Shown here: piece after piece, positions 535 through 54,070 of the stretch
How the letters are laid out: every line of letters starts with the position of its first letter
How positions within the stretch are numbered: position 1 is the stretch's first letter
NCBI GenBank assembly: GCA_029862975.1
Contig: JAOTWP010000008.1
Location: 1-58,504, forward strand
Direction: 5' to 3'
From: Acidobacteriota bacterium
Lineage (GTDB): Bacteria > Acidobacteriota > Thermoanaerobaculia > Multivoradales > JAHEKO01
Length of the DNA stretch: 58,504 nucleotides
The notes under the pieces: model-generated
The model's input: the letters and a program-made list of their open reading frames with translations, nothing else
Databases searched by the model: none
Told to the model about the DNA's origin: nothing
Program-made: the position numbers and the translations under genes

Positions 535-2610
535 ATGCTTCGAAGGGTGCTGAGTTGGACGACGGCGGTTATCTGCTGCGCCTCGCTGGTGCTGGCGCAG
601 GACTCTCCCGGGGCGGAGGAGGCGGAGCCGGAAGAGCTCGAGCGCGTCGAGGACGTCCTCGTCGTCACGGCCTCGCGCACGGAACAGCGCCTGCAGGATG
701 CGCCTGCCGCGATGACGGTGATCACCGCCGGGCAGCTCGAGGTCGCCACGTCGGACGACTTCGGGGACATCCTGCGCAACGTCCCGGGAATCAACGTGTC
801 GCAGATCAGCGCCCGCGACGTCCAGATCACGGGCCGCGGCGCCACGAACAGCCTGGCCACGAGCCAGCTGGTGCTCGTCGACAGCCGCTCGATCTACCTC
901 GACTTCTTCGGCTTCGTGATCTGGGAGTTCCTGCCCTCGAATCCCTACGAGATCAAGCAGATCGAGATCGTGCGCGGCCCGGGAAGCGCCGTGTGGGGCG
1001 CCAACGCCCAGACGGGGGTGATCAACCTCATCACCAAGACCCCGCGCGAGATGCAGGGCACCTCCGTGACCCTGGGCGGCGGCGAGCTGGGAACCGCTTT
1101 CGGCTCCTTCACCCACGCCGCGGCCGGCGAGCGCTCCGGCTACAAGATCTCCGCCGCCTACTTCGAGCAGGATCCCTACGACCGGCCGGCCGGCACGATT
1201 CCCGGAACCGGCACCCCCTACCCGCCGTTCGAGAACCAGGGCACGAGCCAGCCCAAGGTCGACCTACGCTGGGATCGTGACCTCGACGAGAGCTCGACGT
1301 TCCAGATCTCGGCCGGTTGGGCGGCGACCGACGGCATCATCCACAGCGGCCTCGGCCCCTTCGACATCCAGAGCGACTCGGCGCTGAGCTACCTGCAGTT
1401 CGGCTGGTCGAAGAACGCCAGGCGCCTGGGCTTCTTCGTCAACGACCTCGACGGCGTGGGGGACAACCTGCTGGCGGTCGGCTCCGACGGCCGGCCGCTC
1501 CGGCTCGGCTTCTCGAGCCGGACGTACAACCTCGACTACGGCGACACCAGGATCTTCGGCGACAAGAACGTGGTGACCTGGGGCGCGACGGCGCGGGCCA
1601 ACGACTTCGACCTGTCGATCGCGCCCCTGGGCAGCGATCGCGACGAGTACGGCGGGTTCCTGCAGGACGAGATCCTCATCAACGACAAGGTGCGCTGGCT
1701 CGTTGGCTCGCGGATCGACAACATCGATCCCATCGGCACGGTCGTCTCCCCGCGGACGAGCCTCATGATCTCGCCGACCCCCGACCACACGCTGAGATTC
1801 TCGTTCAACCGCGCCTTCCGCTCGCCGTCGGTGATCAACAACTACCTCGACATCACGATCCTCAACGAGGTGCAGATCCCGGTGGCGCCCGGCGTGGCCA
1901 TCCCCTACGTCTTCCCCAGTGACGCGATCGGCAACGTCGATCTGAAAGAGGAGCGGCTCGATGCCCTGGAGGTCGGCTACGTCGGCAACTTCGGCAGCGA
2001 CCTGGTCCTGACGCTGGCCGTGTACGAGAACAAGACGATCGACTCGATCGACTTCTTCACTCTGAGCACCTACACGGGCTCGAATCCGCCGCTCGGCTTC
2101 CCGCTGCCGCCCTTCGTGCTCGACGTCCCGCCGCCGTTCGGTCTGGCCGGCCTCTTCCCGGAGTCCTTCTCCTACCGCAACATCGGCGAGCAGACCAATC
2201 GCGGCGTAGAGTTCTCGCTCAACGGGGATCCCTCGCCCACGTGGTCCTGGTTCTTCAACTACTCCTGGCAGGACACGCCGGACGTCGTGGGGGTGCCGCT
2301 CGCCGAGGTGAACCTGGCGCCCGAGAACCGGGTCAACCTCGGGCTGGCCTACAGCGGCGACCGCTACTTCTGGAACGCCAACGCCAACTACCAGGACGAG
2401 GCCTTCTGGACGGACGTCCTGGACTCGCGCTACTTCGGCCCCACGGACTCCTTCACCCAGGTGAACCTGGGGATCGGGATCTGGTTCCAGGACGGTCGCA
2501 GCATGTTCAAGATCGACGCCCAGAACATCGCCGACGAGGACGTCCAGCAGCACGTCTTCGGCGACATCATCGGCCGCAAGATCACGGGCCGCGTCGCCGT
2601 GCGCTTCTAG
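535..2610 (+). CDS. TonB-dependent outer-membrane receptor
   Basis: A 691-residue outer-membrane active transporter. Residues 1-21 form a signal peptide ending at LVLAQ. A TonB-box-like stretch, EDVLVVTASRTEQ, lies near residues 38-50. The plug domain follows (about 50-170, including DILRNVPGINVSQ and EIKQIEIVRGPGSAVWGANA), then a long barrel ending in RVAVRF with a terminal Phe. The length suits a siderophore/cobalamin-type receptor of the FepA/BtuB superfamily, but the substrate is unknown. AGGAGGAA a few bases before the ATG is an excellent ribosome-binding site and fixes the start. It is the second TonB-dependent receptor in tandem but has its own leader after a terminator. Confidence 0.92.
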   Translation: MLRRVLSWTTAVICCASLVLAQDSPGAEEAEPEELERVEDVLVVTASRTEQRLQDAPAAMTVITAGQLEVATSDDFGDILRNVPGINVSQISARDVQITGRGATNSLATSQLVLVDSRSIYLDFFGFVIWEFLPSNPYEIKQIEIVRGPGSAVWGANAQTGVINLITKTPREMQGTSVTLGGGELGTAFGSFTHAAAGERSGYKISAAYFEQDPYDRPAGTIPGTGTPYPPFENQGTSQPKVDLRWDRDLDESSTFQISAGWAATDGIIHSGLGPFDIQSDSALSYLQFGWSKNARRLGFFVNDLDGVGDNLLAVGSDGRPLRLGFSSRTYNLDYGDTRIFGDKNVVTWGATARANDFDLSIAPLGSDRDEYGGFLQDEILINDKVRWLVGSRIDNIDPIGTVVSPRTSLMISPTPDHTLRFSFNRAFRSPSVINNYLDITILNEVQIPVAPGVAIPYVFPSDAIGNVDLKEERLDALEVGYVGNFGSDLVLTLAVYENKTIDSIDFFTLSTYTGSNPPLGFPLPPFVLDVPPPFGLAGLFPESFSYRNIGEQTNRGVEFSLNGDPSPTWSWFFNYSWQDTPDVVGVPLAEVNLAPENRVNLGLAYSGDRYFWNANANYQDEAFWTDVLDSRYFGPTDSFTQVNLGIGIWFQDGRSMFKIDAQNIADEDVQQHVFGDIIGRKITGRVAVRF

Positions 2611-2652: not shown

Positions 2653-4947
2653 CTAGGGGAGGACGTAGGTCGAGCTCCAGAAGCAGTCGCTCGATTGCGA
2701 GCCGTCCAGGCAGCCGGCGGTGGGGTCCATCTTCAGCAGGTAGAAGAGCGAGGGATGGCGCCCGCTTTCGAGGACCGAGGCGAAGCCGGGGAGCACGAGG
2801 CCGTCGAGCTTCCCGCGGGCGAAGCTGTCGAGCTGCTGTGGCGTGAGGTCGACGCGGTAGAAGGACGCTCCGGCGCGGAAGAAGAGGGCGTCCAGGTAGA
2901 TCGACTCGGACAGCGGCATGGAGCGCGTCAGATTGAGGAAGAGATCGTCGGCCAACGGCGGATAGGCGTCGTCGTCGGAGCAGGGGATGCAGGGATCCTC
3001 CTCCGGGGCGGCCGTGAGCTGGTCGGCGACCCACTGGACGAGCCCGGCCACCCGCGGTTCCGGGACCGGGCCGGCGACCGGCGGCGCGACGACGACAAGC
3101 GCGGGATCCGCCTCGTCCCAGCAGCCGCTCTGGACCCCCTGGACGACGCCGCGGAGAACGGCGTCGATCTCGGGGTTGCAGTAGGGATGCTCCTGGGCGC
3201 CCTGCGCGAGGACCATGCAGTCGTTGGCGGCGGACCAGCGCGTCACCCAAGCGCCCCCGGCATAGGGGTCGATCCCGGGCAGCTCGGAGAGCAGCCGGGC
3301 CAAGCCGCCGGTCAGGAAGGCCGTCGCGAGAGACGAGCCTGACGGGAGCGCCGTTCCCGCCGCGCAGAGCCCGTGGCCGGGCAGGATGGCGTCGTACTGG
3401 ACGGGCGATTCCCAGGTGCGATGCAACGCTCCGGAGTTCAGATACCCGCCCACGTCGAGGGCGCCGACGGCCAGCGTCTCCTGGAGAGCAGCGGGAAAGA
3501 GCAGCTCGCGATGGTTGCCGGCGGCGGCCGCGATGGTCACGTCGCGATCCCGGAGGTGGGCGAGCAGGCCGCGGATGTGGCAGCTCAACGTTCCTTGGCA
3601 GGGGCTTCCCGGGATCGGGTCCGTCGGCTGCTGGACGCGCCCCAGGCTCATGCCCAGGGTCGTGAGCGCGGCCGAGCCGCCGTCCACGTCCTCCGCGACC
3701 TGGCAGAGTTTCACGAGGAGATGCTGGTCGCCGATCTCGGTACCGAGCGGGGCGAGCGAGTCATCGTCGAGGTAGTAGCCGATCGCGGGAATCTCGGGGC
3801 CCGACAACGCCTCGGTGACCGCGCCGACGGCGAGACCGTGGGAGTCCTGCCAGTCGATCAGCGCGGCCCAGGTACCGGCTGCCGGCGCCTTGCCGGGCAG
3901 CTTCTCGAGCGCGAGCGGCCGTGGGGTACTGCCTTCCCTCGATGCGCCGATCTCGTAACCCGGGTAGGTGAACGGCTGGCCGGATCCCGAGTCGAAGGGC
4001 AGGCAGTTCGACGAGGCGACCTCGAAGTGGAGCTCGCCGTAGGAGCCGCAAGACGCGGAGAACAGGGAGACGGTATCCGGACACTCCGCAGCGTAGAACT
4101 CCCAGCTCAGGTCCGTGCCGCGCGTGGCCTGGGTGCCGGACCCTTCGACGGCGCGGCCGCCGCCGTCCGCGGGCAGCAGTCGAAGCTCGAAGGAGTGGAG
4201 CTGGAGGTGGTGCGCGAGAGCCAGCTTCTCGAGCTCCGAGCGGGTGATGCTCGCCGGCGCCTCGAGACCTCCGGGCGGCCAGATCAACATGACGAGCTCG
4301 TAAAGGCCGGGCTCCGGGCCCACGAGATCGCCGGCCTCGGCTTCGAGCACCGCCGTGCCGCGCTCGACCCGGATCCGCGCCGCCGCCTCCGGGATCCGAA
4401 CGAGCGTGCCGGACTCCGCGCGGCGATACAGGGCGAACTCGATGCCGGGCGCGGGCGTCGTCGCCGGTCGGGCGACGATCCGGACCCGCGAGCCCGGCAT
4501 GATCTCGTGGGACGCCTCCGGCTCGGAGCCGCGCCGCTCGGCGAGGCCCTGGACGGTGACGGCGTAGGCCGGGATCTCGGCGCCCGAGAGCGCGGTCTCG
4601 CCGCCGCCCGTCCGCAGCGTGTAGAAGAGGCCGGTCATCGCGAGCGCGCCGAGCAGGATCGACGCGGCAAGCCGCAATGCCGGCCGCCGTCGCACGGCCG
4701 GCTTCTCGACGACCCCGGCCAGCCGCTCCATCGCCCGCTCGTCCGCGGCCAGCCTGCGCTCGAAGCGGTGGCGCTCCCCGGCCGGCAGCTCGCCGCGCCG
4801 GTAGCGCTCGATCAGATCGTCGTCGACGGGCGACTCACAAGCCCGCAGGGAGGGCCGCGAGCAAAGGGTCGAGAGCTGCCACAGCAGGTCCTCGGTCTCC
4901 GGGTCCAGGTGTTCGTGGCTGTACGCGAAGCGTCGTGTGAAGATCAT
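2653..4947 (-). CDS. Membrane-anchored subtilisin-like (S8) protease with anti-sigma-like N-terminus
   Basis: 764 residues. The N-terminal ~80 residues (LIERYRRGELPAGERHRFE, then ADERAMERLA) resemble the cytoplasmic helical domain of anti-sigma factors that partner ECF sigma factors, without the usual HxxxCxxC zinc ligands. One membrane helix follows at about 91-110. The large C-terminal part would then be periplasmic. It carries a divergent subtilase core: LID (Asp365), SHGLAVG (His370), AAAAGN (Asn478, oxyanion) and GSSLATAFLTGG (Ser539). The Asp-His distance is only five residues, against about 30 in classical subtilisins. Many cysteines in the C-terminal third suggest disulfides. GGAGGG precedes the ATG, 30 bases after the CHAT gene stop. 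It is the third gene of a sigma-CHAT-protease operon. Its role as anti-sigma factor and protease is inferred from domains and context. Confidence 0.8.
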   Translation of the reverse strand: MIFTRRFAYSHEHLDPETEDLLWQLSTLCSRPSLRACESPVDDDLIERYRRGELPAGERHRFERRLAADERAMERLAGVVEKPAVRRRPALRLAASILLGALAMTGLFYTLRTGGGETALSGAEIPAYAVTVQGLAERRGSEPEASHEIMPGSRVRIVARPATTPAPGIEFALYRRAESGTLVRIPEAAARIRVERGTAVLEAEAGDLVGPEPGLYELVMLIWPPGGLEAPASITRSELEKLALAHHLQLHSFELRLLPADGGGRAVEGSGTQATRGTDLSWEFYAAECPDTVSLFSASCGSYGELHFEVASSNCLPFDSGSGQPFTYPGYEIGASREGSTPRPLALEKLPGKAPAAGTWAALIDWQDSHGLAVGAVTEALSGPEIPAIGYYLDDDSLAPLGTEIGDQHLLVKLCQVAEDVDGGSAALTTLGMSLGRVQQPTDPIPGSPCQGTLSCHIRGLLAHLRDRDVTIAAAAGNHRELLFPAALQETLAVGALDVGGYLNSGALHRTWESPVQYDAILPGHGLCAAGTALPSGSSLATAFLTGGLARLLSELPGIDPYAGGAWVTRWSAANDCMVLAQGAQEHPYCNPEIDAVLRGVVQGVQSGCWDEADPALVVVAPPVAGPVPEPRVAGLVQWVADQLTAAPEEDPCIPCSDDDAYPPLADDLFLNLTRSMPLSESIYLDALFFRAGASFYRVDLTPQQLDSFARGKLDGLVLPGFASVLESGRHPSLFYLLKMDPTAGCLDGSQSSDCFWSSTYVLP

Positions 4948-4977
4948 CGTCTACCCTCCGATTCGGGGCACGTTGCC

Positions 4978-7782
4978 TCATGGGCGGCGAGAGTCCTCTC
5001 TCTCTGTAGACACAGGAGTCGACCGCGGGGCGCTTTGCCCATCTCCCGCGGTCCGATTCGGGGTGCGCGCGCCCGCGACCAGCAGGATGGCCGCCCACTG
5101 GCTGGCCGGCCAGCGCTCGCGCACGGTGCTCATCGCCCCCGCGTAGGCTACGGGCACGGGTTTCCCCTCCCGGAGGGCAGGGTAGAAGACCTCGTTGAAG
5201 TCGGCTGCGAGCTCGTCCGCCACCGCGGTGCTGCTCGCGATCGTCCATGGCACGCCCGCGCGCGCGAGAGCGCCGGCGAGGCCGTAGCGACCGCCGTCGG
5301 CGGTGACAGGCCACACGCCGGTCCAGCAGCTGAGCAGGTTGGCGCCGTCCAGGTTCGTCGAGAGCTCTTCGAGATCCGCCAGCCCGAGCGCGCCATCGGC
5401 CAGGACGAGATGAGACAGCTCCGGAAAGGCCGGATCGTAGGCTCCGTGCGCGTCGACGTGCAGCCAGGACGACGAGCGCAGCGCACGGGTAACGGCTGCG
5501 GTCGTCGCCGCCCCGCCTTCCAGGACATCGTCCTGCGGGAACCAGCGCCGGTAGGCATCGGCGAGGTGTCGCCCGGAGGGCAGGTTCAGCGAGGGGTCGA
5601 CGACGAACGTTCGCCGCCGGTCGCCGCTCGCCGGAGGCGGTCTCTCTCTCGCCGCCGCCGGGTAGAGCACGACGAGCGCAATCTCTCCGAGCCACCTCGT
5701 TGCAGAGCCGGTGCTCGGCAGGGGCAGGGCGGCCAGCGGAACCTCCTGCAGCGACCCGTGAAGCCAGTAACCCCGAACGGAAGTCGGATCCCCTGCGTCC
5801 GCGATCACGGGCGCGAGGGCGGCAGTGAGCGGTGCGGCCACCTCGCGCCACTCGTCGTCATTCGAGCGCCGGACCATGGAGCCAAGCTCGGTCACCCGGG
5901 TCCGCGCGATCGCCGTGCGGCGCACCAGGCGCACCGCGCCGGAGTCCGTGCGCTCGAGGAGCACGATCTCGTCGTCGAGGGGCACGGCGCGCAGGCCGGC
6001 AAGTCGCGGGTCGCCGCCGCCGGCCGGCTCGCCGCATCGGCGACGCCGCACGATCTCTCCAAGCTCCTGGCGCAGCAGCCTCTTGACCGGTTCCATCTGC
6101 CGTTCCCGCTCGACCGAGGCGGGGCGGTCGAGCTCCTCGAGAAGCTCGGCGATCTCGCGCTCGTGGGCGGCGTCGGGGTCCGGTTTCGCCCCGTAGGAGC
6201 AGTCTCGCGAGGCGACGCCGACGCTCAGAGAATCCAGGCGCTCGAGGAGACTCCAGGCCTCGGCAACGCGGTCGCGCTCGATGGCGACGCGCGCGGCGCG
6301 ATAGAAGTCGTCGGCGCGGCGGCCCAGGTCGATGGACAGGTTCTGATCGATACGCGCTGGTATGGCGCTCTCGTGCAGCCGGAGCGTTTGCTCGTAGGCG
6401 CCGGCGGCAACGTGCAATTCGCCGCGTCGGCGATGGGCCTCGGCGACACAACCCGCCGCCCAGGCTGCCAGCCGCGCGGTGACGGCTCCCGCGAGCGCTC
6501 GCCCGCAGCTCTCGAGCGCGGCGTTCGGATTGGTTTGCAGCGCGCCCTCGCCGGCGAGGAGATCCGCCCACCGGGTGAGGTCGCGCACCCGGGTCGAAGA
6601 CTGCGCCGAAGCGAGCAGGAGGGCGCGGGCACCTTCGAGCTCCGCCGCGAACGGCCGATGCTGGCGCAGGTCGAGAGAGGCGCGGTTGAGGAGGCGGTTG
6701 GCTCGCGTGAGCCCGTCGTCGCCGGACCTCGCTGGGTCGAGAAGGTCGTCCAGGATGGCCCGCGCCTCGGCCCAGCCGTTCTCCCCGGCCAGCGGATCGG
6801 TGATGAGGAGCCACGCGAGGTCACCGCGCACCGCGCCGAGAAGGGAATCCGGGCAGGCCGTCTGCGAGCATTCGTCGAGCGCCGAGCGCAGTGTCTCGAT
6901 CGCCCGCCCGATCGACCCCACGCTCGCGAGCATGTTGGCCTGTCGCATGGAGACGACGAGACGACGTGGGTCGGCGGTCGCCAGGAAGAGGCTCGAGGCC
7001 TGCCGCAGGTGCGCCCACATCCGCGACCAGTTGGGGCGGCCGGTCTCGCTCTCGATCCCTTGCAGCTCCTGTTCGACCTGTGCCGCCCACTCGGCTGCCG
7101 CAATCTGCCCGATCCACGGAGGAAGGTCGGTGAGCAGCGCCGCGGCGACGGTGCGCCCTTCGGGACCGCCGCGGGTCCTTGCGAAGTGGGCCGCGATCAG
7201 GCGGGCCCGCAGTGCCAGGAACGGGAAGCCGGCAGCAGTGGAGCGCTCGGAGATCGAATCGAGGGAGGCAAGCAGCGAGGAGAGCGAGTCGTGAGCAGCG
7301 GTGTGCACTGTGTGATTGAGCTCTTGCCGAAAGCTGCCGTACGCCGCGTCGTCTGCCAGGATCTGCACCAGGACGCAGGGCACTGACCAGGCACGTCCGT
7401 CGGAGTCGTCATGCACCTCGGCGCAGATTTCGAGCCGCCGGCCCCGGACATCGGGCGTCAGCTGGCGCTCGAAGCAGACGGTCCCCGCCATCCGCGCCGC
7501 CGCCGCCGCGAGCTCGCCGTGACGGTCGGAGTCCCACCAGATCGTCGCCTTCCAGCGGCTCGTGTCGACCTCCGGTCGCGCCTGGAAACAGAGCCCGAGG
7601 AGGTCCTTCGTGGAGGCGAAAAGGGGAACGAGCTCACCATCGGCCAGCAGCACGGCGTCGTGATGGCCGCGGACGGCGATGGAGGTCCAGGGCGGCGGCG
7701 CGGCGGGCTCGCCGCAGCCGAGAGCTCCGCAGAGAACGAGGGCGAGCTCCGAGCTCGCTCGCCGCGCACCGGTACGAGTCAC
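4978..7782 (-). CDS. TPR-like / CHAT-domain caspase-like protease
   Basis: 934 residues from a GTG whose first bases overlap the stop of the upstream sigma gene (GTGA); an upstream ATG at 7815 is the alternative. The N-terminus has basic residues and a hydrophobic stretch ending ALGCGEP, a possible but non-ideal lipobox (Cys23), so the protein may be exported. The middle (about 150-560) is Ala/Leu-rich helical repeat resembling degenerate TPRs. The C-terminal third is a CHAT domain, with RGYWLHGSLQEVPLAALPLP, then WLHVDAHGAYDP with the candidate catalytic His779, and ANLLSCWTG with Cys819. Both members of the caspase-type His-Cys dyad are present, so the peptidase is predicted to be active. 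It is translationally coupled to the sigma gene and followed by the anti-sigma-like subtilase. The substrate is unknown; the partner protease is the natural candidate. Confidence 0.85.
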   Translation of the reverse strand: MTRTGARRASSELALVLCGALGCGEPAAPPPWTSIAVRGHHDAVLLADGELVPLFASTKDLLGLCFQARPEVDTSRWKATIWWDSDRHGELAAAAARMAGTVCFERQLTPDVRGRRLEICAEVHDDSDGRAWSVPCVLVQILADDAAYGSFRQELNHTVHTAAHDSLSSLLASLDSISERSTAAGFPFLALRARLIAAHFARTRGGPEGRTVAAALLTDLPPWIGQIAAAEWAAQVEQELQGIESETGRPNWSRMWAHLRQASSLFLATADPRRLVVSMRQANMLASVGSIGRAIETLRSALDECSQTACPDSLLGAVRGDLAWLLITDPLAGENGWAEARAILDDLLDPARSGDDGLTRANRLLNRASLDLRQHRPFAAELEGARALLLASAQSSTRVRDLTRWADLLAGEGALQTNPNAALESCGRALAGAVTARLAAWAAGCVAEAHRRRGELHVAAGAYEQTLRLHESAIPARIDQNLSIDLGRRADDFYRAARVAIERDRVAEAWSLLERLDSLSVGVASRDCSYGAKPDPDAAHEREIAELLEELDRPASVERERQMEPVKRLLRQELGEIVRRRRCGEPAGGGDPRLAGLRAVPLDDEIVLLERTDSGAVRLVRRTAIARTRVTELGSMVRRSNDDEWREVAAPLTAALAPVIADAGDPTSVRGYWLHGSLQEVPLAALPLPSTGSATRWLGEIALVVLYPAAARERPPPASGDRRRTFVVDPSLNLPSGRHLADAYRRWFPQDDVLEGGAATTAAVTRALRSSSWLHVDAHGAYDPAFPELSHLVLADGALGLADLEELSTNLDGANLLSCWTGVWPVTADGGRYGLAGALARAGVPWTIASSTAVADELAADFNEVFYPALREGKPVPVAYAGAMSTVRERWPASQWAAILLVAGARTPNRTAGDGQSAPRSTPVSTEREDSRRP

Positions 7783-8366
7783 TTTCGCCGTCGAATCCGC
7801 AGCTCGCTTGAGCATTCTTTCACGGCGATGTCGAGGGCCTGTTTGAGGCGGTACGTGATCTTCATCGACCAGCCCGTCATCGCGGAGATCTCGCGCGGCG
7901 CCCACCCCTGATGGTAGCGCAGCTTGAAGTACAGATAAGTCCGCGATCCCTTCCGTTTGAGGCAGTCGTCGAGGCTACGGAGAGTGTCGATCGCGAGGAT
8001 CTGACGCTCGAGGTCTTCGGCCGTGGGCTCGACGGGTCGGAGCCCGGGGTCGCGCCGCCACCGTATCCGGCGCCGCCGGTTCGTGGCGACGCCGCATGCG
8101 TGGTCCCACAAGTAGCGCTCGAGCTCCTTCTCCAGCTCCGGGTCGTCGCTCGAGGTTCGGGGGAAGCGGGCTAGCAGGGCGGCGTCGTCCCGGAGGTAGC
8201 GCACGAAGGCGTCCTGGAGCAGATCTTCCGCGTCGAGATAGGGATACCGCAGGCGAAGTCGTCTCAGAAGCCGCGGTCCGAAACGCTCATAGAGGACTTG
8301 GACCGCCCGGCGATCTCCGACATCGAGATTCCGAAGGAGGGTCCGTACGTTGAACAGCATTTGCAA
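7779..8366 (-). CDS. ECF-type RNA polymerase sigma factor
   Basis: 195 residues. Region 2 is recognisable in RAVQVLYERFGPRLLRRL and YLDAEDLLQDAFVRYL. Region 4 has LKRKGSRTYLYFKLRYHQG and a helix-turn-helix, APREISAMTGWSMKITYRLK. An unusually basic linker (TNRRRRIRWRRDPG) lies between them. It is the first gene of the minus-strand module with the CHAT protease and anti-sigma-like subtilase, so it is probably the output of that module and may drive its own operon. There is no clear Shine-Dalgarno before the ATG, and a second ATG follows two codons later. Region 2 is more divergent than in typical RpoE/SigR proteins. Confidence 0.85.
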   Translation of the reverse strand: MQMLFNVRTLLRNLDVGDRRAVQVLYERFGPRLLRRLRLRYPYLDAEDLLQDAFVRYLRDDAALLARFPRTSSDDPELEKELERYLWDHACGVATNRRRRIRWRRDPGLRPVEPTAEDLERQILAIDTLRSLDDCLKRKGSRTYLYFKLRYHQGWAPREISAMTGWSMKITYRLKQALDIAVKECSSELRIRRRK

Positions 8367-13694: not shown

Positions 13695-13957
13695 CGAGGC
13701 GTCGCAGGGCGGCCTCGCGGGGAGACAGAAGCCGGCAAAGATGGGATACTAGCCGCCGCTTTGTGTGACATTCTCCGCGGATCGGGGTCTCACCCGACCT
13801 GTCGCCCGCGCGGTCGCGGATCGAATCCGGGGGGGTTCGGGATAGACTGATGAGGTTCGCCATGCCGAATTCCGATGCTACTGGCCCCGGGTGGGGCCCT
13901 GTTGTGCAGCCCTCCCGAGTCCGCTCCGTCGCCTATCAGCCGTCGAGGTCGATCACC

Positions 13958-16900
13958 ATGAAACGAATCCCGTTTTCTGTCTGTGCAGCGCTGCTCGTCG
14001 CAGCGCTCCTCCTGGCGGCGCCGGCCGGCGCCGACATCTCCGGCACGGTCTTCCGTGACGTCGACGGTGACGGCGTCAATGACGGCGGCATCGAGGCGGG
14101 CGTTGGAGGAATCGGCGTCCAGGCCTTCAATGCGGCCGGCAACACCCCGGTGGCCAGCACCACGACGGCCGCCAATGGCACCTACAACCTCGTCCTGGTC
14201 GCTGGGAGCTACCGCGTGGAGTTCGTCATCCCGGCGGCCCTGAACCACTTCCAGCCCTCGGTCGTCCTCAGCGGCTCCGGCAACACCTCGGTCGTCTTCG
14301 CCGCCAGCCCTGCCACCAACGTCAACTTCGGCGTCATCAACCCCGGCCAGTTCTGCCAGGCCGACCCCGTGGTCGGGGTCAACTGCTACCTCAGCGGCCC
14401 GCAGCCCGGCTTCAACAGCCCGGGTCAAGACGTGCTGGTCTCGTTCCCCTACACCGCGGGCTGCCCCGACGAGAACCAGAACGGCGTCTGCGACGTCGGC
14501 AGCGCCGACGCCCCGGCGCCGACCGAGCTGGCCCTCGGCTCGGAGCTCGGCAGCACCTGGGGGCTGGCCTATCAGCGCTCCACCGATACCCTCTTCGCGG
14601 CGGCCTTCCAGAAGCGCCACAGCGGCTTCCGGACCTACGGCGACACGGGCGTCATCTACCGCGTCGACGACGCCTCGCTGGGCCTCGGCGCCACCATCTC
14701 CCCCTACGTCGACTTCGACGCTCTGGGGATCCCCACGGCGAACGCGGCGCTCTTCCCGCCGTTCGGCGATCCCCACCCGGCGCCCACGGCGACCTGCACC
14801 TCCGCCCTGGGCGTCGCCGATCCCGGCGCCACCAACCGCAATTGCTGGCTCCACGACGCGAGCTCCTACGGCCAGGTGGGCCGCATGTCGTTCGGCGATC
14901 TCGACATCTCCGACGACGAGTCGACCCTGTGGACGGTCAACCTCTTCAACAAGACCCTCTACTCGGTTCCGGTGAAGACGACGCCCGTCACGCTGGGCGA
15001 GATCGGCGCCCACCCCCTGCCGACGCCGGCCTGCAACGGCCAGCGCCAGCCCTTCGCGGTGGGTTTCGAGGACGGCCTCGTCTACGTCGGCCTCGTCTGC
15101 GACGGGTCGACGGGGACGGCGGCGGACCTGCGGGCCTACGTCTATTCCCTCGACCCGGACAACATCCCCGGCGGCTTCACGCAGCGCCTGAACCAGCCGC
15201 TCAACTACGGCCGCGGTTTCACCGTGAACTCCGGTGCCGCCAATATTCCGGCAGCCTGGCTGCCCTGGAACGACACCTTCACCAATCCCCCCTCGGCCCC
15301 CGGCCCGCCTCTCGGCCCGGTCTTCGGCACCGAGGTCGGCTATCCGCAGCCGTGGCTGACCGACATCGAGTTCGACGACGACGACCTCGTGCTCGGAATT
15401 CGTGACCGCTTCGCGGACCAGGCGGGCTTCGACCTCGGCTCTCCGGCCAACACGTCGTCTACCGTGTGGCGGGGTGACGGCGCCGGAGACACTCTGCGCG
15501 CCTGTCCCAGCGGCTCCAACTGGACCTTCGAGTCCAACGCCAGCTGCGGCGGCGTCACGACCGGCGGCGCCGGCAACGGGCAGGGTCCGGGCGGCGGGGA
15601 GTACTACTACGAGGAGCGCCTCACCGAGCCAACCCCACCGCCTCCGACGATCCACGACGAGACCTCCCTGGGCGGCCTTTTCCAGGTCCCGATCAACACC
15701 GAGGTGCTGTCGACGGTCTACGACCCGCTGAACTCCTCCGCCGGGTCGCAGGTCTTCAGCGGCGGCATCCACTGGTGGCGGCGCGCGGACGGCCAGGTCG
15801 ACAACCTCTATCGCGTCTTCCTGCGCACCGACCCCAACACCTTCGGCAAGGCCGGCGGGCTGGGCGACCTCGAGGCGCTGTGCGACCCGGCACCGCTCCA
15901 GATCGGCAACCGGGTGTGGCTCGACGCCGACGTCGACGGCCTCCAGGATCCGGGGGAAGCGGGCTTGAGCGGCCTGACGGTCGCGATCTACAGCAACGCG
16001 GACGGGGTCTGCGACGGGACCGGCGAGGTGCTGCTCGGAAGCGTCGTCACGGCGGCGAACGGCACCTACCTCTTCACCGACGCGAACGTCACCGGCGGGC
16101 TCCAGTACGGCACCAAGTACTGCCTGCGGATCGTCGTCCCGGGCGGCTTCGGCGCGACCGTGCGCGACGCGACTCCGGTCGGCGACGGCCGGGACGACGT
16201 CCGTGACTCGGACGGCGACCCGGCGCCCTTCCCCGGCTCGGTCGTGACGAGCTTCACCACCGGCGGGCCGGGCAACAACCGCCACGTCTACGACTTCGGC
16301 TTCCGCGCCCTCGAGTTCGACTACGGCGATCTGCCGGACCCGCCCTACGCGACGCTGGCGGCGTCGAACGGCCCCAACCACGAGATCACCACTCCGGGCA
16401 ACTGCTACCTCGGCGGCCCGCCGGACTCGGAGCTCGACGGCCAGCCGAACGCGCCGGCCCTCGGTGACGACAACGACTTGAACGGCGACGACGAGGACGG
16501 CGTGCTCTTCCTGACGCCGCTCATCCCGGGGCGGGTCGCCGACATCCAGGTCGCCTCTTCCGGCGCCTGCGTCCTCAACGCCTGGATCGACTTCAACTCC
16601 AACGGCAACTTCGCGGATCCCGGTGAGCTGATCGCCTCCAACCTCGCCCTCGTGGCCGGCAACAACCTGCTCGACAACGTCCCGGTGCCCGCCGGCGCCA
16701 CGGGGGTCATGGCGGCGCGGTTCCGGGTGACCAACCTGGCTGGCCAGGGCGGCGCCAGTCCGACCGGGCCGGCGACGACGGGCGAGGTCGAGGACTACGT
16801 TCTGGCCGCGCTCGGCGACTTCGTGTGGAACGACTCGGTCGTCGGTCAGGGCATCCAGCTCGGCGGCGACACGCCGGTGCCGGGGCTGGTCGTGCACCTG

Positions 16901-19723
16901 CTGGCCAACGACGGCGTGACGCCGATCCTGGACGGCGCCGGCGTGGCGATCACCGCGACGACGGACGCCAACGGCAACTACGAGTTCCCGGGGCTGCCGA
17001 CGCTGACCAACTCCGGTCTGCCCAACCCCGGCGACTACCGCGTCCGCTTCGAGCTGCCGCCGCCGTTCGTCGACTTCTCGCCGCGCGACAACACTACGGA
17101 CGATCTCGACAGCGACGCGGACCAGGTCGCGCAGCCGATTGCGGGGCTGACGCAGATCGTGAGCCTGACCTCGGGCGTCGACGACGTCGACCTCGACGCC
17201 GGCCTGCGGGCGCCGACCGTGGCGCTCGTCACCTCGGCGGCGGCCTACGTCGATGGCGGCGCGGTCGTGTTCGAGTTCTCGACCGGCTACGAGGCGCTCT
17301 CGGCAGGCTTCGAGGTGTTGCGCCACGAGCCGGAGACCGACGAGTACGTGGCGGTCAGCGAGCGCCTGATCCCGGCTCTCCTGGGCTCGCCCCAGGGCGG
17401 CGTCTACCGGGTGGTCGACGAGGGCGCGCCGTTCCGCGAAACGCTGCGCTACGTGATCGTCGAGCACCAGGGTGACGGCCGCACTCAGGTCTACGGCCCC
17501 TACCCGGTCCAGGTGACGGACCGCGGCAGCCGAGCCCCGCTGGACGCGAGCTTCGCGGCCCTGCCCCACGTCTCGCCCCGCTTCGGCGACAGGATGGCGC
17601 AGGCGCGCGGCGAGACCGCGGAGCGCGGCCGGCGCGATCGATCGGCAGCCACCAGACTCTCCTCGCGCTCCTGGACGCTCCAGGTCGGCGTGCGCGACTC
17701 GGGCCTCTACCGCGTCTCGGTGGCGGCCATGGCTGCCGCGCTGGGCGTGCCCGAGTCGAGGGTGCGCTTTCTGATCGACCACAGCCTGGTCGAGATGGAG
17801 AACCGGGGACAGCCGGTCGCGTGGTGGACGCCGAACGGCTCGGACGGCGATCTCTTCTTCTACGGCGAGGCGATCGACAGCCTCTACACCCTCGAGAACA
17901 CCTACTGGCTGCGTCTCTACCGGCCCGGCCAGCGCATGGACCGCTCCGGCGGACCGCTGCCGCCCGCGGCCCCCGGCGGCGTCTTCGTCTCGACGGAGCG
18001 CTTCGAGGAGGACGTCATCCCCGCGATCACCGGCGTGCGCGAGACGGAGGTCGACCACTGGTTCTGGGGCGGCATCAACGCCCAGAACCCGAACACGATC
18101 CTCGCGTTCGATGTCGCCGTTCCCGACGCCGCCGCCGGAGCCGCCAGCATGACGGTGCGCTTCGCCGGCGCCACGGACGGCGTCGCGCTGCGAGATCATC
18201 ACGCGATCGTGAGGGTCAACGGAACGGAGGTCGGCACCGCGGCATGGGGCGGGATCGAGTTCTTCGAATCCACGTTCGCCTTCGACGGCGCCTTGCTGAC
18301 GCCCCTGACCTCGGTCGAGATCGAGGGCGTTCTGGCGGAAGGCTCGACGGCGTCGATCTTCTTCGTCGACGGCTTCGACGTCGATTACCCGCGCTTCTAC
18401 CGCGCCCTCGACGACCGCCTGCTCGTCCGGGGCGACGGCAACCCGATCGTCACCGTCGAAGGCTTCACGAGCCCAGACGTCGCGGTGTTCGATCTGACGG
18501 ATCCCGAGGCTCCGGTGCGGGTCACCAACGTTCTCGTCGAAGTGGTAGGCAGCGGCGTGCAGGCGAGCTTCTTCCCGACGACGGCCGCGACGCCCTACCT
18601 CGTGACGACCGAGACGTCGGCGCTGCCGACGACGGATCCGCGCTTTGTCGCCCCGGCGATCGACCTGCGGGCGACCTACCACGCCTACGAGCACGTGGTG
18701 ATCGCTCCCGAGGCGTGGCGCCTCGAGGCCGAGGACCTCGCGGCGTACCGCAGCGGCATGGGGCTGAGCTCGCTCGCCGTCAGCATCGAAGAGGTCTACG
18801 ACGCCTTCAGCGACGGCATCGTGACCCCGTGGGCGGTACGCGACTTCCTGTCCTACGCCCGCGAGAACTGGTCCCAGGGACCGGACTACGCGGTGCTGGC
18901 GGGCCGGGGGACGTTCGATCCGCGCGATCTCCTTGGTGGCGGCGACAACTTCATCCCGGTGGTCCTCGTCGGCACGCCGTACGGTCTGGTGGCGACGGAC
19001 AACGTCCTCGCCGACCTCGAGGCCGGAGACTCGGTTCCGGAGGTGGCACTGGGCCGCCTGCCGATCGTCAGCGCCGCGGAGCTCGCGACCTACGTCGACA
19101 AGCTCGAGGCCTACGACGGGTCGCAGGGCCCCTGGCGCGGCCGCGCACTCCTGCTGGCCGACAACCCGGACACGGCGGGCGACTTCCCGCTGCAGAGCGA
19201 CGTGGTTGCGAGCCTGCTCACGGCCTACGATCAGAAGCTCGTCTACCTCTCGGAGATGGGCATCGACGACGCGCGCGCCGCGCTGCAGGAGTCCTGGAAC
19301 GCCGGCGTCCAGCTCATCAACTACGTCGGGCACGGCGGAGTGACCCAGGCGGCCGCGGAAGGCCTCGTCCGGGCCACGGACGTCGGTCTGCTGGCCAACG
19401 GCGATCGGCTGCCGGTCGTCTCGGCGCTGACCTGCATCGTGGGCCGCTCCGACGTCCCGAACCTCGAGTCTCTCGCCGAGGCCCTGGTGCTGGATGCCGA
19501 CGGCGGCGCGATCGCGGTCTGGGCGCCGACGGGCATCTCGTTCGGCGGCGCGGCGCACACCCTCAACGTGCTCTATGCCGAGGCGATCGCGGCGGCGGCG
19601 CCGGATACGCCCCTGGGCGAGATCGTCCTGCAGACGCTCGCCGGCTTCGAGGCCCTCGGCGGCTCGCCCGAGATGCTCGACGCCTACGCGATCGCGGGCG
19701 ACCCGGCGGTGGCCCTGCCCTAG
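13958..19723 (+). CDS. Giant secreted SdrD-like / GEVED / C25 (gingipain-type) cysteine protease
   Basis: 1921 residues from the ATG before MKRIPFSVCAALLVAALLL, a clear signal peptide. An upstream in-frame ATG at 13850 would bury it. SdrD B-like domains lie near residues 27-130 (ISGTVFRDVDGDGVNDGG), 647-775 (GNRVWLDADVDGLQDPGEAG) and 950-1085 (LGDFVWNDSVVGQG), with a GEVEDY motif near 941. The C-terminal ~370 residues are a peptidase C25 domain with NYVGHGG (His1792) and ALTCIVGR (Cys1826), so the His-Cys dyad is intact. The protein stops immediately after the C25 domain (GDPAVALP), with no Ig-like or type IX sorting domain. It is probably a secreted or surface protease. Its own transcript is suggested by the flanking spacer and terminator. 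Confidence 0.88.
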   Translation: MKRIPFSVCAALLVAALLLAAPAGADISGTVFRDVDGDGVNDGGIEAGVGGIGVQAFNAAGNTPVASTTTAANGTYNLVLVAGSYRVEFVIPAALNHFQPSVVLSGSGNTSVVFAASPATNVNFGVINPGQFCQADPVVGVNCYLSGPQPGFNSPGQDVLVSFPYTAGCPDENQNGVCDVGSADAPAPTELALGSELGSTWGLAYQRSTDTLFAAAFQKRHSGFRTYGDTGVIYRVDDASLGLGATISPYVDFDALGIPTANAALFPPFGDPHPAPTATCTSALGVADPGATNRNCWLHDASSYGQVGRMSFGDLDISDDESTLWTVNLFNKTLYSVPVKTTPVTLGEIGAHPLPTPACNGQRQPFAVGFEDGLVYVGLVCDGSTGTAADLRAYVYSLDPDNIPGGFTQRLNQPLNYGRGFTVNSGAANIPAAWLPWNDTFTNPPSAPGPPLGPVFGTEVGYPQPWLTDIEFDDDDLVLGIRDRFADQAGFDLGSPANTSSTVWRGDGAGDTLRACPSGSNWTFESNASCGGVTTGGAGNGQGPGGGEYYYEERLTEPTPPPPTIHDETSLGGLFQVPINTEVLSTVYDPLNSSAGSQVFSGGIHWWRRADGQVDNLYRVFLRTDPNTFGKAGGLGDLEALCDPAPLQIGNRVWLDADVDGLQDPGEAGLSGLTVAIYSNADGVCDGTGEVLLGSVVTAANGTYLFTDANVTGGLQYGTKYCLRIVVPGGFGATVRDATPVGDGRDDVRDSDGDPAPFPGSVVTSFTTGGPGNNRHVYDFGFRALEFDYGDLPDPPYATLAASNGPNHEITTPGNCYLGGPPDSELDGQPNAPALGDDNDLNGDDEDGVLFLTPLIPGRVADIQVASSGACVLNAWIDFNSNGNFADPGELIASNLALVAGNNLLDNVPVPAGATGVMAARFRVTNLAGQGGASPTGPATTGEVEDYVLAALGDFVWNDSVVGQGIQLGGDTPVPGLVVHLLANDGVTPILDGAGVAITATTDANGNYEFPGLPTLTNSGLPNPGDYRVRFELPPPFVDFSPRDNTTDDLDSDADQVAQPIAGLTQIVSLTSGVDDVDLDAGLRAPTVALVTSAAAYVDGGAVVFEFSTGYEALSAGFEVLRHEPETDEYVAVSERLIPALLGSPQGGVYRVVDEGAPFRETLRYVIVEHQGDGRTQVYGPYPVQVTDRGSRAPLDASFAALPHVSPRFGDRMAQARGETAERGRRDRSAATRLSSRSWTLQVGVRDSGLYRVSVAAMAAALGVPESRVRFLIDHSLVEMENRGQPVAWWTPNGSDGDLFFYGEAIDSLYTLENTYWLRLYRPGQRMDRSGGPLPPAAPGGVFVSTERFEEDVIPAITGVRETEVDHWFWGGINAQNPNTILAFDVAVPDAAAGAASMTVRFAGATDGVALRDHHAIVRVNGTEVGTAAWGGIEFFESTFAFDGALLTPLTSVEIEGVLAEGSTASIFFVDGFDVDYPRFYRALDDRLLVRGDGNPIVTVEGFTSPDVAVFDLTDPEAPVRVTNVLVEVVGSGVQASFFPTTAATPYLVTTETSALPTTDPRFVAPAIDLRATYHAYEHVVIAPEAWRLEAEDLAAYRSGMGLSSLAVSIEEVYDAFSDGIVTPWAVRDFLSYARENWSQGPDYAVLAGRGTFDPRDLLGGGDNFIPVVLVGTPYGLVATDNVLADLEAGDSVPEVALGRLPIVSAAELATYVDKLEAYDGSQGPWRGRALLLADNPDTAGDFPLQSDVVASLLTAYDQKLVYLSEMGIDDARAALQESWNAGVQLINYVGHGGVTQAAAEGLVRATDVGLLANGDRLPVVSALTCIVGRSDVPNLESLAEALVLDADGGAIAVWAPTGISFGGAAHTLNVLYAEAIAAAAPDTPLGEIVLQTLAGFEALGGSPEMLDAYAIAGDPAVALP

Positions 19724-51754: not shown

Positions 51755-53896
51755 TCAGGGTCGGAACGAGATCTTGAGATCGACCCACATCTTGACCCGC
51801 ACCCCGAGCTTCGTGGCGGGGACCCACCGCGTGCCGCGGGCCGCCGCCGCGGCCGCCTCGTCGAATCCGAAGCCGACCTTCTCGCCGACCGGCTCGATCC
51901 GGGCGACGCTGCCGTTCTCGTCGATCAGCAGGCGCAGCTGGACGTCGGCCTGCTTGTTGAGACGGCTGGCGGCCGGAGGATAGCGCGGCTGCGGGCGGCC
52001 GACCATCCGCGGCCGCTCGACCCCGGGGCCCATCTCGACGAGATCGCCCACGGCGGGCGGGGGCGCCGGGCTCGGCGGCACCGTCTCCGCTTGCTCCGCC
52101 GCTTCGGAAGGGGCCGTCTGGACGCGCTCGGCGCTGGCGGCGGCGCCTTGTTGCTCTGCCACCGGAGGGCTCGCCGCGACCGGCGAATCGGTCCTGGCGG
52201 CCGCGTCGCCGGCGGGCTGGTCGTCCGCCGGTGCGGCCGTTGCCGGCGGCTCGCCGGTCCGCGCCGGCGGGGACGAGGCGGCGAGTGGCCTCGCGTCTCC
52301 CGCCGCCGGCGCCTCGGCCTGAGCCGCGGCCTGCTGGGCGAGGCGGGCCTCTTCCAGCTGCTGCCGCAGCGCTGCCAGCTCTTCCTCGTACCTCGCTTCG
52401 AGTCTGTTCGTCCGGTCGTCCACGAGCTGCTCGATCTGCGCCTCGACCTGCTCGGGGGTGGGGGGCACGCTCACTCCCGAGGTGTCGACCGAGTCGGGGG
52501 GCAGGGCAGCCTCGTCTTCGCGACCGCCTGCGACCTCGAGTCCGAGCGACGGGGTGCCGTCGACGGCCGGCTCGAGGGCACCGGCGGGAGCGTCGCCTCC
52601 GAGATCGCCGCCTTCGAGATCGCCAGCTCCGAGATCGTCGGCGAGCGGGTCCGCCTCTTCCCGCATCTCGGTGTCCGCCAGCAGGAGGTCCGTCGCCGGC
52701 GCACTCGTGGTTCGCCAGTAGTACGCCGCGGCGAGGCCGGCGCCGAGGGCGACCGCGATCAGGGGAGCCAGCACCTTCCAGTTGGCGCCCTTGCCCCGGG
52801 CGCCGCCGTATTGGGCGCTCGCGTATCCGGTGCCGGCGCTCGCTGCGGCTCCCGTCCGCGGGCGATCGTCGGCCGCCTTGCCGGGGGGGATGAGCACGGT
52901 ATCCGACGGCCCGGGAGTCGGCTCGTCGACGCGGGCGAGCGCCGCGACGTCGACCTGGGTCGCTTTCTCGCGCGCGATGTCCAGCGTCTCCTGCTCGATC
53001 TCACCGCCGAACAGGGTGTGCATGAAGAACGCGAGATTGAACGTCGTGGGGCTGTAGTGGGCCTCGGCGATGAACCGGCCGAAAGCCTGCTGCCACTGCT
53101 GCACGTCGCCGATGCGCTGCGCTCGGGGGGCCAGGCTGCTCTTCAGGAGCGCCCGCAGCTGCGGCGGCAGCGGCTTTTCCTCGGCGGCGAGGACCGCGTC
53201 GTCGATCGCCGAGTCGAAGTTGCCGTCCGGCGGGTGGCTCAGCCGATTGCCGGTGAGCAGCTCGTAGAGCAGCGAGCCGAGCGAGAAGACGTCGTCCGTC
53301 GGGCTGGGCTCGGTCCCGGGAACGATCTCCGGCGCCAGGTACGGGCCGAAGGCTTCGCGGATCGGGGCGGCCTTGAGAAACTCGCGCAGGCCCGGCGCCG
53401 ACTCGAAGCCGACCAGGCGGACCTCGCCTTCGTTGGAGAGCAGCGCCTGCTCGGGCACGAGAAAACCGTGCTGCACGCGCTGGTCCCGATGCCGCGTGGA
53501 GAAGGCGGCGCTGAGCCCGAACGTGATTCTCTCCAGGATGAACAGCGCGTGCTCGGTGGGGATCTGGAACCCGCGCGCACGGGCCTGGTTGAGCAGCTCG
53601 GCGAGGTTCTTTCCCGACACGTACTCGTAAGCGACGTACGGAGTTGAGCCGACGCGGCCGACGTCCGCTCCGTCGCCGATGTGGGGGTTCTGCAGGATCC
53701 GGTGCAGCCCCATGCTGTCGGCGATCGTGCGCCAGAGGCTCTCGGGCTCGATGCCCGTGCCGTTGAACAGACGCAGCAAGACGACGCGCTCGATGCCCTG
53801 GCTGCCGATTCTGCCGGCCCGGAAGGTCTCGCCGAGGCCGTCGCTCGACAGGCGCCGGAACAGGAGGTACTCACCGAATTGCTGTGGGGTCGTCAT
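51755..53896 (-). CDS. Membrane pseudokinase with C-terminal TonB domain
   Basis: 713 residues from the ATG after GGAGAG. Residues 8-275 form a protein-kinase fold (FGEYLLFRRLSSDGLGETFRAG; PYLAPE; DDVFSLGSLLYELLTGNRL). Every catalytic motif is lost: VAIK is VLLR (Arg42), HRD is HGF (143-145), DFG is GFE (163-165). One membrane helix lies at about 373-393. A long Ala/Pro/Glu-rich periplasmic linker includes a coiled coil (RLEARYEEELAALRQQLEEARLA). The last ~85 residues are a TonB C-terminal domain (GRPQPRYPPAASRLNKQADVQLRLLIDENGSVARIEPV). It would couple a cytoplasmic sensor domain to outer-membrane partners. This fusion is not one I know well. Confidence 0.85.
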   Translation of the reverse strand: MTTPQQFGEYLLFRRLSSDGLGETFRAGRIGSQGIERVVLLRLFNGTGIEPESLWRTIADSMGLHRILQNPHIGDGADVGRVGSTPYVAYEYVSGKNLAELLNQARARGFQIPTEHALFILERITFGLSAAFSTRHRDQRVQHGFLVPEQALLSNEGEVRLVGFESAPGLREFLKAAPIREAFGPYLAPEIVPGTEPSPTDDVFSLGSLLYELLTGNRLSHPPDGNFDSAIDDAVLAAEEKPLPPQLRALLKSSLAPRAQRIGDVQQWQQAFGRFIAEAHYSPTTFNLAFFMHTLFGGEIEQETLDIAREKATQVDVAALARVDEPTPGPSDTVLIPPGKAADDRPRTGAAASAGTGYASAQYGGARGKGANWKVLAPLIAVALGAGLAAAYYWRTTSAPATDLLLADTEMREEADPLADDLGAGDLEGGDLGGDAPAGALEPAVDGTPSLGLEVAGGREDEAALPPDSVDTSGVSVPPTPEQVEAQIEQLVDDRTNRLEARYEEELAALRQQLEEARLAQQAAAQAEAPAAGDARPLAASSPPARTGEPPATAAPADDQPAGDAAARTDSPVAASPPVAEQQGAAASAERVQTAPSEAAEQAETVPPSPAPPPAVGDLVEMGPGVERPRMVGRPQPRYPPAASRLNKQADVQLRLLIDENGSVARIEPVGEKVGFGFDEAAAAAARGTRWVPATKLGVRVKMWVDLKISFRP

Positions 53897-54070
53897 GGCA
53901 TGGCTCTCCGGGCACTGGAGTACGTCATCGCACCCGCCAACGAACCTCCCCCCCAGCACACCAGGTTTTCGACGGGCAATCTAGCATATCGACGCACCGC
54001 CAAAGGGGGGATCCGCGTGAGCGTCCCCCGGCGGCGATTCTGACCCGTATCGCCCCGACGGTCCAGCCTG

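Follow-up and report, generated by a model that had tools for sequence, protein, structure and literature searches.

A conserved four-gene operon for an ECF sigma factor, a putatively exported CHAT protease, an anti-sigma-like protein and a subtilase in Acidobacteriota

A gene for an ECF sigma factor that overlaps the gene of a CHAT protease and is followed by a gene for a membrane-bound subtilase raises the question of whether these genes form one regulatory module, and of how the two proteases may be connected with the sigma factor. Such genes are found near one end of the window, by which we mean the whole stretch of 58,504 nucleotides analysed here (contig JAOTWP010000008.1 of an Acidobacteriota bacterium). 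A sequence-only reading had placed three consecutive genes at positions 2653-8366, and all of them were found there, on the minus strand, as are all features of this locus described below.

Gene layout and gene fusion in the window

The first gene (7779-8360, with an ATG at 8360) encodes a protein of 193 aa. Its earlier assignment as an ECF sigma factor stands, with a match to TIGR02937 (E 3.1e-8, below the curated cut-off) and to the profile of its family, members of which have Pfam matches for region 2 and region 4. The second gene (4978-7782) encodes a TPR-CHAT protease of 934 aa that is predicted to be a lipoprotein. The sigma stop codon and the CHAT start codon share the bases GTGA at 7779-7782, from which translational coupling had been proposed. 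The overlap is real, but an ATG at 7815, located 33 bases 5' of the GTGA start, is an equally possible CHAT start, since an ATG occurs there in many relatives; starts at -4 and at -34, the latter corresponding to ATG 7815, both recur among the relatives.

The third gene (2653-4947) encodes a protein of 764 aa, consisting of an anti-sigma-like domain, one membrane helix, an Ig-like domain and an S8 subtilase domain. It is a fusion of two genes, one anti-sigma-like and the other for the S8 protease, that are adjacent but separate in relatives wherever both can be read, a circumstance that the sequence-only reading had missed. The usual gene order in relatives is sigma, CHAT, anti-sigma and S8; the module is a quartet rather than the self-contained triplet described earlier, and the window holds the only fusion seen. 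An origin of the fusion in the assembly was considered and judged unlikely, because a lost stop codon would leave the signal peptide of the split S8 genes in place, yet none is present at the junction. As judged from gene order and sequence in relatives, the window quartet is one lineage's form of a conserved four-gene operon, condensed by gene fusion.

Several other genes of the window were recorded. A gene for a TonB-dependent receptor (535-2610, plus strand) is convergent with the fusion gene. Further away are a gene for a 1957-residue protein with a gingipain-type C25 peptidase domain, another caspase-like-clan protease, and SdrD B-like repeats (13850-19723, plus strand), and a gene encoding a fusion of a protein kinase domain with a TonB C-terminal domain (51755-53959, minus strand).

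Domains, catalytic residues and predicted location of the proteins

The CHAT domain (5080-5760) is recognised by PF12770 (E 1.8e-22) and by the family alignment, and His779 (5446-5448) and Cys819 (5326-5328) are present, in agreement with the intact dyad reported before. The window protein on its own gives a weak TPR match (TPR_14, E 0.0085), but the TPRs are clear in the family profile. A single-sequence search of genome contigs with the CHAT protein gave no match, and the alignment-based scan did find matches. In the family alignment the His/Cys dyad is intact in all 31 operon copies. Both solitary family members, which stand without sigma, anti-sigma and S8 genes, have lost both residues; these are lipoprotein CHAT relatives located among unrelated genes (L099, 6066-8600, and L100, 6753-9335).

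The CHAT protein also carries an export signal that had gone unnoticed. It begins with VTRTGARRASSELALVLCGALGC, a lipoprotein-type signal with the lipobox ALGC at residues 20-23, which is not the strongest form of a lipobox; the signal covers 7714-7782 (VTRTGARRASSELALVLCGALG followed by Cys) and is supported by the N-termini of the family. Among the 32 complete CHAT N-termini, counted by eye and with export read from sequence, 27 have a lipobox-like Cys after a hydrophobic stretch and the other 5 an N-terminal membrane anchor. The sigma proteins, put to the same test, have no such N-terminal hydrophobic segment. These signals indicate that the CHAT protein should be exported and act outside the membrane.

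The fusion protein had been described as a single-pass membrane protein with an anti-sigma-like N-terminus, and both parts of this description are borne out. The helical domain at about residues 16-80 (4708-4902) aligned with zf-HC2 anti-sigma domains, using reference domains drawn from the same phylum, at an hhalign probability of 94.7; the family N-terminal profile scored 36.5, against at most 11.0 in 200 column-shuffled controls. Among the weak Pfam matches of the family, zf-HC2 also comes up most often (3 of 17 members, best E 0.001). The zinc-binding His/Cys residues of zf-HC2 are absent in the family alignment. The N-terminus, going by this homology, is related to zf-HC2 anti-sigma domains but zinc-less. 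A structural model of the anti-sigma part contains five short helices, a single membrane helix (residues 91-113, 4609-4677) and an Ig-like beta domain (residues 128-257, 4177-4566) that is predicted to be extracytoplasmic, and a hydrophobic segment for the membrane helix is present in the relatives that are complete in this region. The Ig-like domain was modelled with pLDDT mostly above 90, and its top Foldseek matches are Ig folds; since this domain dominates the Foldseek results of the anti-sigma model, they are uninformative on the helical domain. A joint alignment of both fusion halves (A5) was poor and was left out of modelling.

The compact S8 domain (3283-3873) matches PF00082 (E 2.4e-7) and contains the residues named before, namely Asp365 (3853-3855), His370 (3838-3840), Asn478 (3514-3516) and Ser539 (3331-3333). 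Asp and His are only five residues apart, which is an unusual spacing. In the model (pLDDT 85.3) the Asp ends a strand, the His starts the next helix and the Ser starts another helix; the subtilisin order of elements is kept, and the best Foldseek matches are subtilisins (E 7e-8). The domain is thus predicted to have a subtilisin fold with an Asp/His/Ser triad and the Asn, the features that define peptidase family S8. The four residues are intact in 24 of 27 copies. In three loci (L053, L054 and L056) His, Asn and Ser have been lost, with RS in place of HG, and the S8 proteins are probable pseudoproteases. Of these loci, L054 and L056 have a readable CHAT gene, and in both the CHAT dyad is intact. 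Judging from the losses of the dyad and of the triad, which are few, the module seems to depend more on CHAT catalysis than on S8 catalysis.

Unfused S8 genes mostly start with a Sec-type signal peptide. Together with the CHAT export signals, this suggests that both proteases are probably located outside the cytoplasm, with the anti-sigma domain inside.

Conservation of the operon and the wider sigma-CHAT pattern

Co-conservation of the genes, proposed earlier as a check, was found in relatives, where sigma, CHAT, anti-sigma and S8 form a strictly conserved unit. In the 72 genomes of the order, the sigma profile detected 25 loci, spread over 14 genomes; every one of them scored E ≤ 6.1e-72, and no further match appeared down to 1e-12. 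The CHAT and S8 profiles match the same 14 genomes, with one genome more for CHAT. A CHAT gene lies directly downstream of 24 of the 25 family sigma genes, followed by anti-sigma and S8 genes wherever the contig allows. The exception is the family operon on contig G037:C43 (L067, 5313-7489), where a second ECF-like sigma gene is located between the sigma and anti-sigma genes in place of CHAT, and a CHAT relative is found 45 kb away.

Beyond the order, four full quartets and one lone sigma gene are found in the complete genome of Acidobacteria bacterium Mor1, and the module is also carried by two further genomes, G186 and G234, in the latter only up to the contig end. The carriers found by the alignment scan are Acidobacteriota, including Thermoanaerobaculia; the large-set searches score the best few candidates per genome, so absences in them are not exact. 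Across 21 loci the distances of the four proteins are correlated (r 0.52-0.69, a level reached in none of 1000 permutations), and paralogous quartet copies within one genome pair off consistently for most genes. Among neighbouring genes no partner outside the quartet recurs in more than 6 loci. A shared bipartite or ECF-type promoter upstream of 28 sigma genes was no better than in shuffled controls.

The association of CHAT proteases with sigma factors extends beyond the quartet. Four related genomes contain 21-45 CHAT genes each. In Mor1 about 15 of the 21 CHAT genes lie within 4 kb of an ECF sigma gene of the same strand, or 16 if the second of a tandem pair is counted, and the expectation by chance is about 1.4 (99 sigma matches in 6 Mb); by this measure the pattern is broad. 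The usual layout comprises a sigma gene, a gene for a zf-HC2 protein and a gene for an exported TPR-CHAT protein, and a hydrophobic export-type segment near a plausible start was present in all 19 CHAT proteins examined, one of them of the quartet type. This pattern was drawn from Mor1, from a single locus in the genome to which the window belongs and from four loci in two other genomes, these four having been picked for the closeness of their zf-HC2 and CHAT matches. Within this sample, and going by predicted export segments, the quartet is one of many sigma-linked exported CHAT systems in the phylum.

Some individual loci deserve description. In Mor1 a second type of operon (L096, 11420-15588), divergent from a quartet, encodes an ECF sigma factor, a zf-HC2-like protein with Cys and an exported TPR-CHAT protein. 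In the window's own genome, a gene for a lipoprotein TPR-CHAT protein and an ECF-like sigma gene are divergently oriented (L059, 6341-10277, on contig G000:C3). Another sigma-linked exported TPR-CHAT protein of Mor1 (L140, 2830-6249) has an N-terminal PDZ domain (PF17820, E 3e-7), recalling DegS.

Possible mechanism and relation to known systems

For membrane anti-sigma factors, RIP involving periplasmic site-1 proteases is an established mechanism (PMC7593790). The best reading of the conserved unit, as far as its sequences can tell, is a similar logic of sigma factor, anti-sigma factor and protease. We propose an outside-in, protease-gated ECF sigma pathway with the exported CHAT lipoprotein as first-cut protease, and hold this form of the proposal at slightly less than an even chance. 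The cytoplasmic zinc-less zf-HC2-type domain of the membrane protein would hold the sigma factor, and the Ig-like domain, in the window together with the S8 domain, would be located outside the cytoplasm. The CHAT protein would act as a signal-dependent site-1 protease, its target being either the extracytoplasmic part of the anti-sigma protein or the S8 partner. Release of the sigma factor for its putative regulon would then fall to a general site-2 protease and to proteases of the cytoplasm, as in the RseA/DegS/RseP system. In favour of this pathway are the conserved operon and the correlated divergence of its proteins, the anti-sigma homology and single-pass topology of the membrane protein, the export signals, the mostly intact S8 triad, and the CHAT dyad that operon copies keep and solitary copies have lost. 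The genome encodes a site-2-protease homologue (PF02163, E 7e-66), as is nearly universal. The fusion ties S8 to the extracytoplasmic domain without an S8 signal peptide, which fits a shared compartment, and the sigma-linked CHAT protein of Mor1 with a signal sequence and a PDZ domain resembles DegS in these features. Points against the outside-in pathway are the lack of a shared promoter, the sequence-predicted nature of lipoprotein export with a lipobox in the window that is not of the strongest form, the sigma gene without CHAT on G037:C43 and the lone sigma gene of Mor1. The earlier proposal that the substrate of CHAT is itself a protease depends on the fusion, which is seen only in the window lineage.

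The proteases could instead be effectors, the sigma/anti-sigma pair controlling the synthesis of a CHAT lipoprotein for export and of a secreted subtilase, both directed against outside targets such as peptides or competitors. We consider this unlikely, if still a serious contender. Both proteases look exported, most unfused S8 proteins having their own signal peptide, and 21-45 CHAT genes per genome, many of them sigma-linked, are what an expanded effector repertoire would lead one to expect. The fusion, however, ties S8 to the anti-sigma protein, and no conserved promoter for a positive feedback loop was found. The sigma gene comes first and overlaps the CHAT start, so that all quartet proteins are probably produced from one unit, which also argues against effectors.

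A further alternative, which appears rather improbable, is that S8 makes the first cut in the anti-sigma protein and CHAT acts as a sensor, or as an activator that processes S8. The subtilisin fold, the triad intact in 24 of 27 copies and the fusion to the anti-sigma protein in the window are in line with such a role; against it, S8 catalysis seems dispensable in L053, L054 and L056, given that His, Asn and Ser are lost there and the CHAT dyad is retained where readable. A Craspase-like course, in which a cytoplasmic CHAT protease would cut the cytoplasmic anti-sigma domain directly and free the sigma factor, has the same part list as Csx29, Csx30 and CASP-sigma (PMC10028731) but is very improbable, since all 32 complete CHAT N-termini carry a lipobox-like Cys or a membrane anchor, the sigma proteins carry no such segment in the same test, and no sequence match to Csx29 was found.

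The outside-in pathway with CHAT as first-cut protease can be compared with several known systems. Type III-E CASP/Craspase, named earlier as a precedent, likewise encodes a TPR-CHAT protease, a sigma inhibitor and an ECF sigma factor together (PMC10028731), and as a list of parts the precedent holds; it fails as to location, in view of the export signals, and as to sequence. When PDB sequences were searched with the CHAT profile, no chains other than TPR and helical designed ones came up at E ≤ 0.1, and Csx29 was not among them. An RNA-guided effector activates Csx29, whereas the quartet CHAT carries an export signal. The quartet further differs in having a membrane protein as its presumed inhibitor and an additional S8 protease, and CRISPR components were not noticed beside its genes.

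ECF54, with a model sigma factor from Geodermatophilus, has a carboxypeptidase, a subtilase and a CHAT protein in its context and no anti-sigma factor, and control by proteolysis has been proposed for it (review PMC8999054, section 3.3). It shares with the quartet the presence of subtilase and CHAT genes near an ECF sigma gene. Compared by description, the ECF54 context has a carboxypeptidase and no anti-sigma factor is described, while the quartet has a dedicated anti-sigma-like protein where readable, a fixed gene order and an exported CHAT protein, and occurs in the phylum Acidobacteriota.

RseA/DegS/RseP and related RIP pathways (PMC7593790, PMC8103513) combine a single-pass anti-sigma factor that has an extracytoplasmic domain with a first-cut protease outside the cytoplasm, as proposed here. 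The quartet differs in that the presumed first cut would be made by a caspase-like CHAT lipoprotein from within the operon itself, with a subtilase in addition. With zf-HC2 anti-sigma factors (PF13490) the membrane protein shares a homologous helical N-terminal domain, but not the zinc-binding His/Cys residues. HetF of Anabaena is likewise a membrane-anchored CHAT/TPR protein, but acts in cell division and heterocyst development and is not described in a sigma operon (PMC8406250). PADLOC models matched CHAT and subtilase only weakly, which gives no grounds for assigning the quartet to a known defence system.

Neither the four-gene operon nor sigma-linked exported CHAT proteins were found described in the literature searched, an absence that is not proof of novelty. 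The sigma/subtilase/CHAT neighbourhood has already been noted for ECF54; what appears new is the four-gene quartet as a variant of protease-gated ECF signalling, a function that we infer. More tentatively, and with rather less confidence than an even chance would imply, Acidobacteriota may possess a large unstudied class of outside-in systems in which caspase-like TPR-CHAT proteases, either secreted or exported to the envelope as lipoproteins, control ECF sigma factors via anti-sigma factors of the zf-HC2 type, so that the logic of Craspase would operate across the membrane, from its outer face. The quartet with its subtilase would be one specialised branch of this class, fused in the window.

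To our knowledge, the first-cut proteases of anti-sigma factors are few, comprising DegS, PrsW, SipS, Prc and the like. If the proposed pathway is true, a caspase-like protease making the first cut outside the cytoplasm would represent a novel type of sigma input device, the many exported CHAT proteins of Acidobacteriota would gain a testable function, and Craspase would be one branch of a wider partnership between CHAT proteases and sigma factors.
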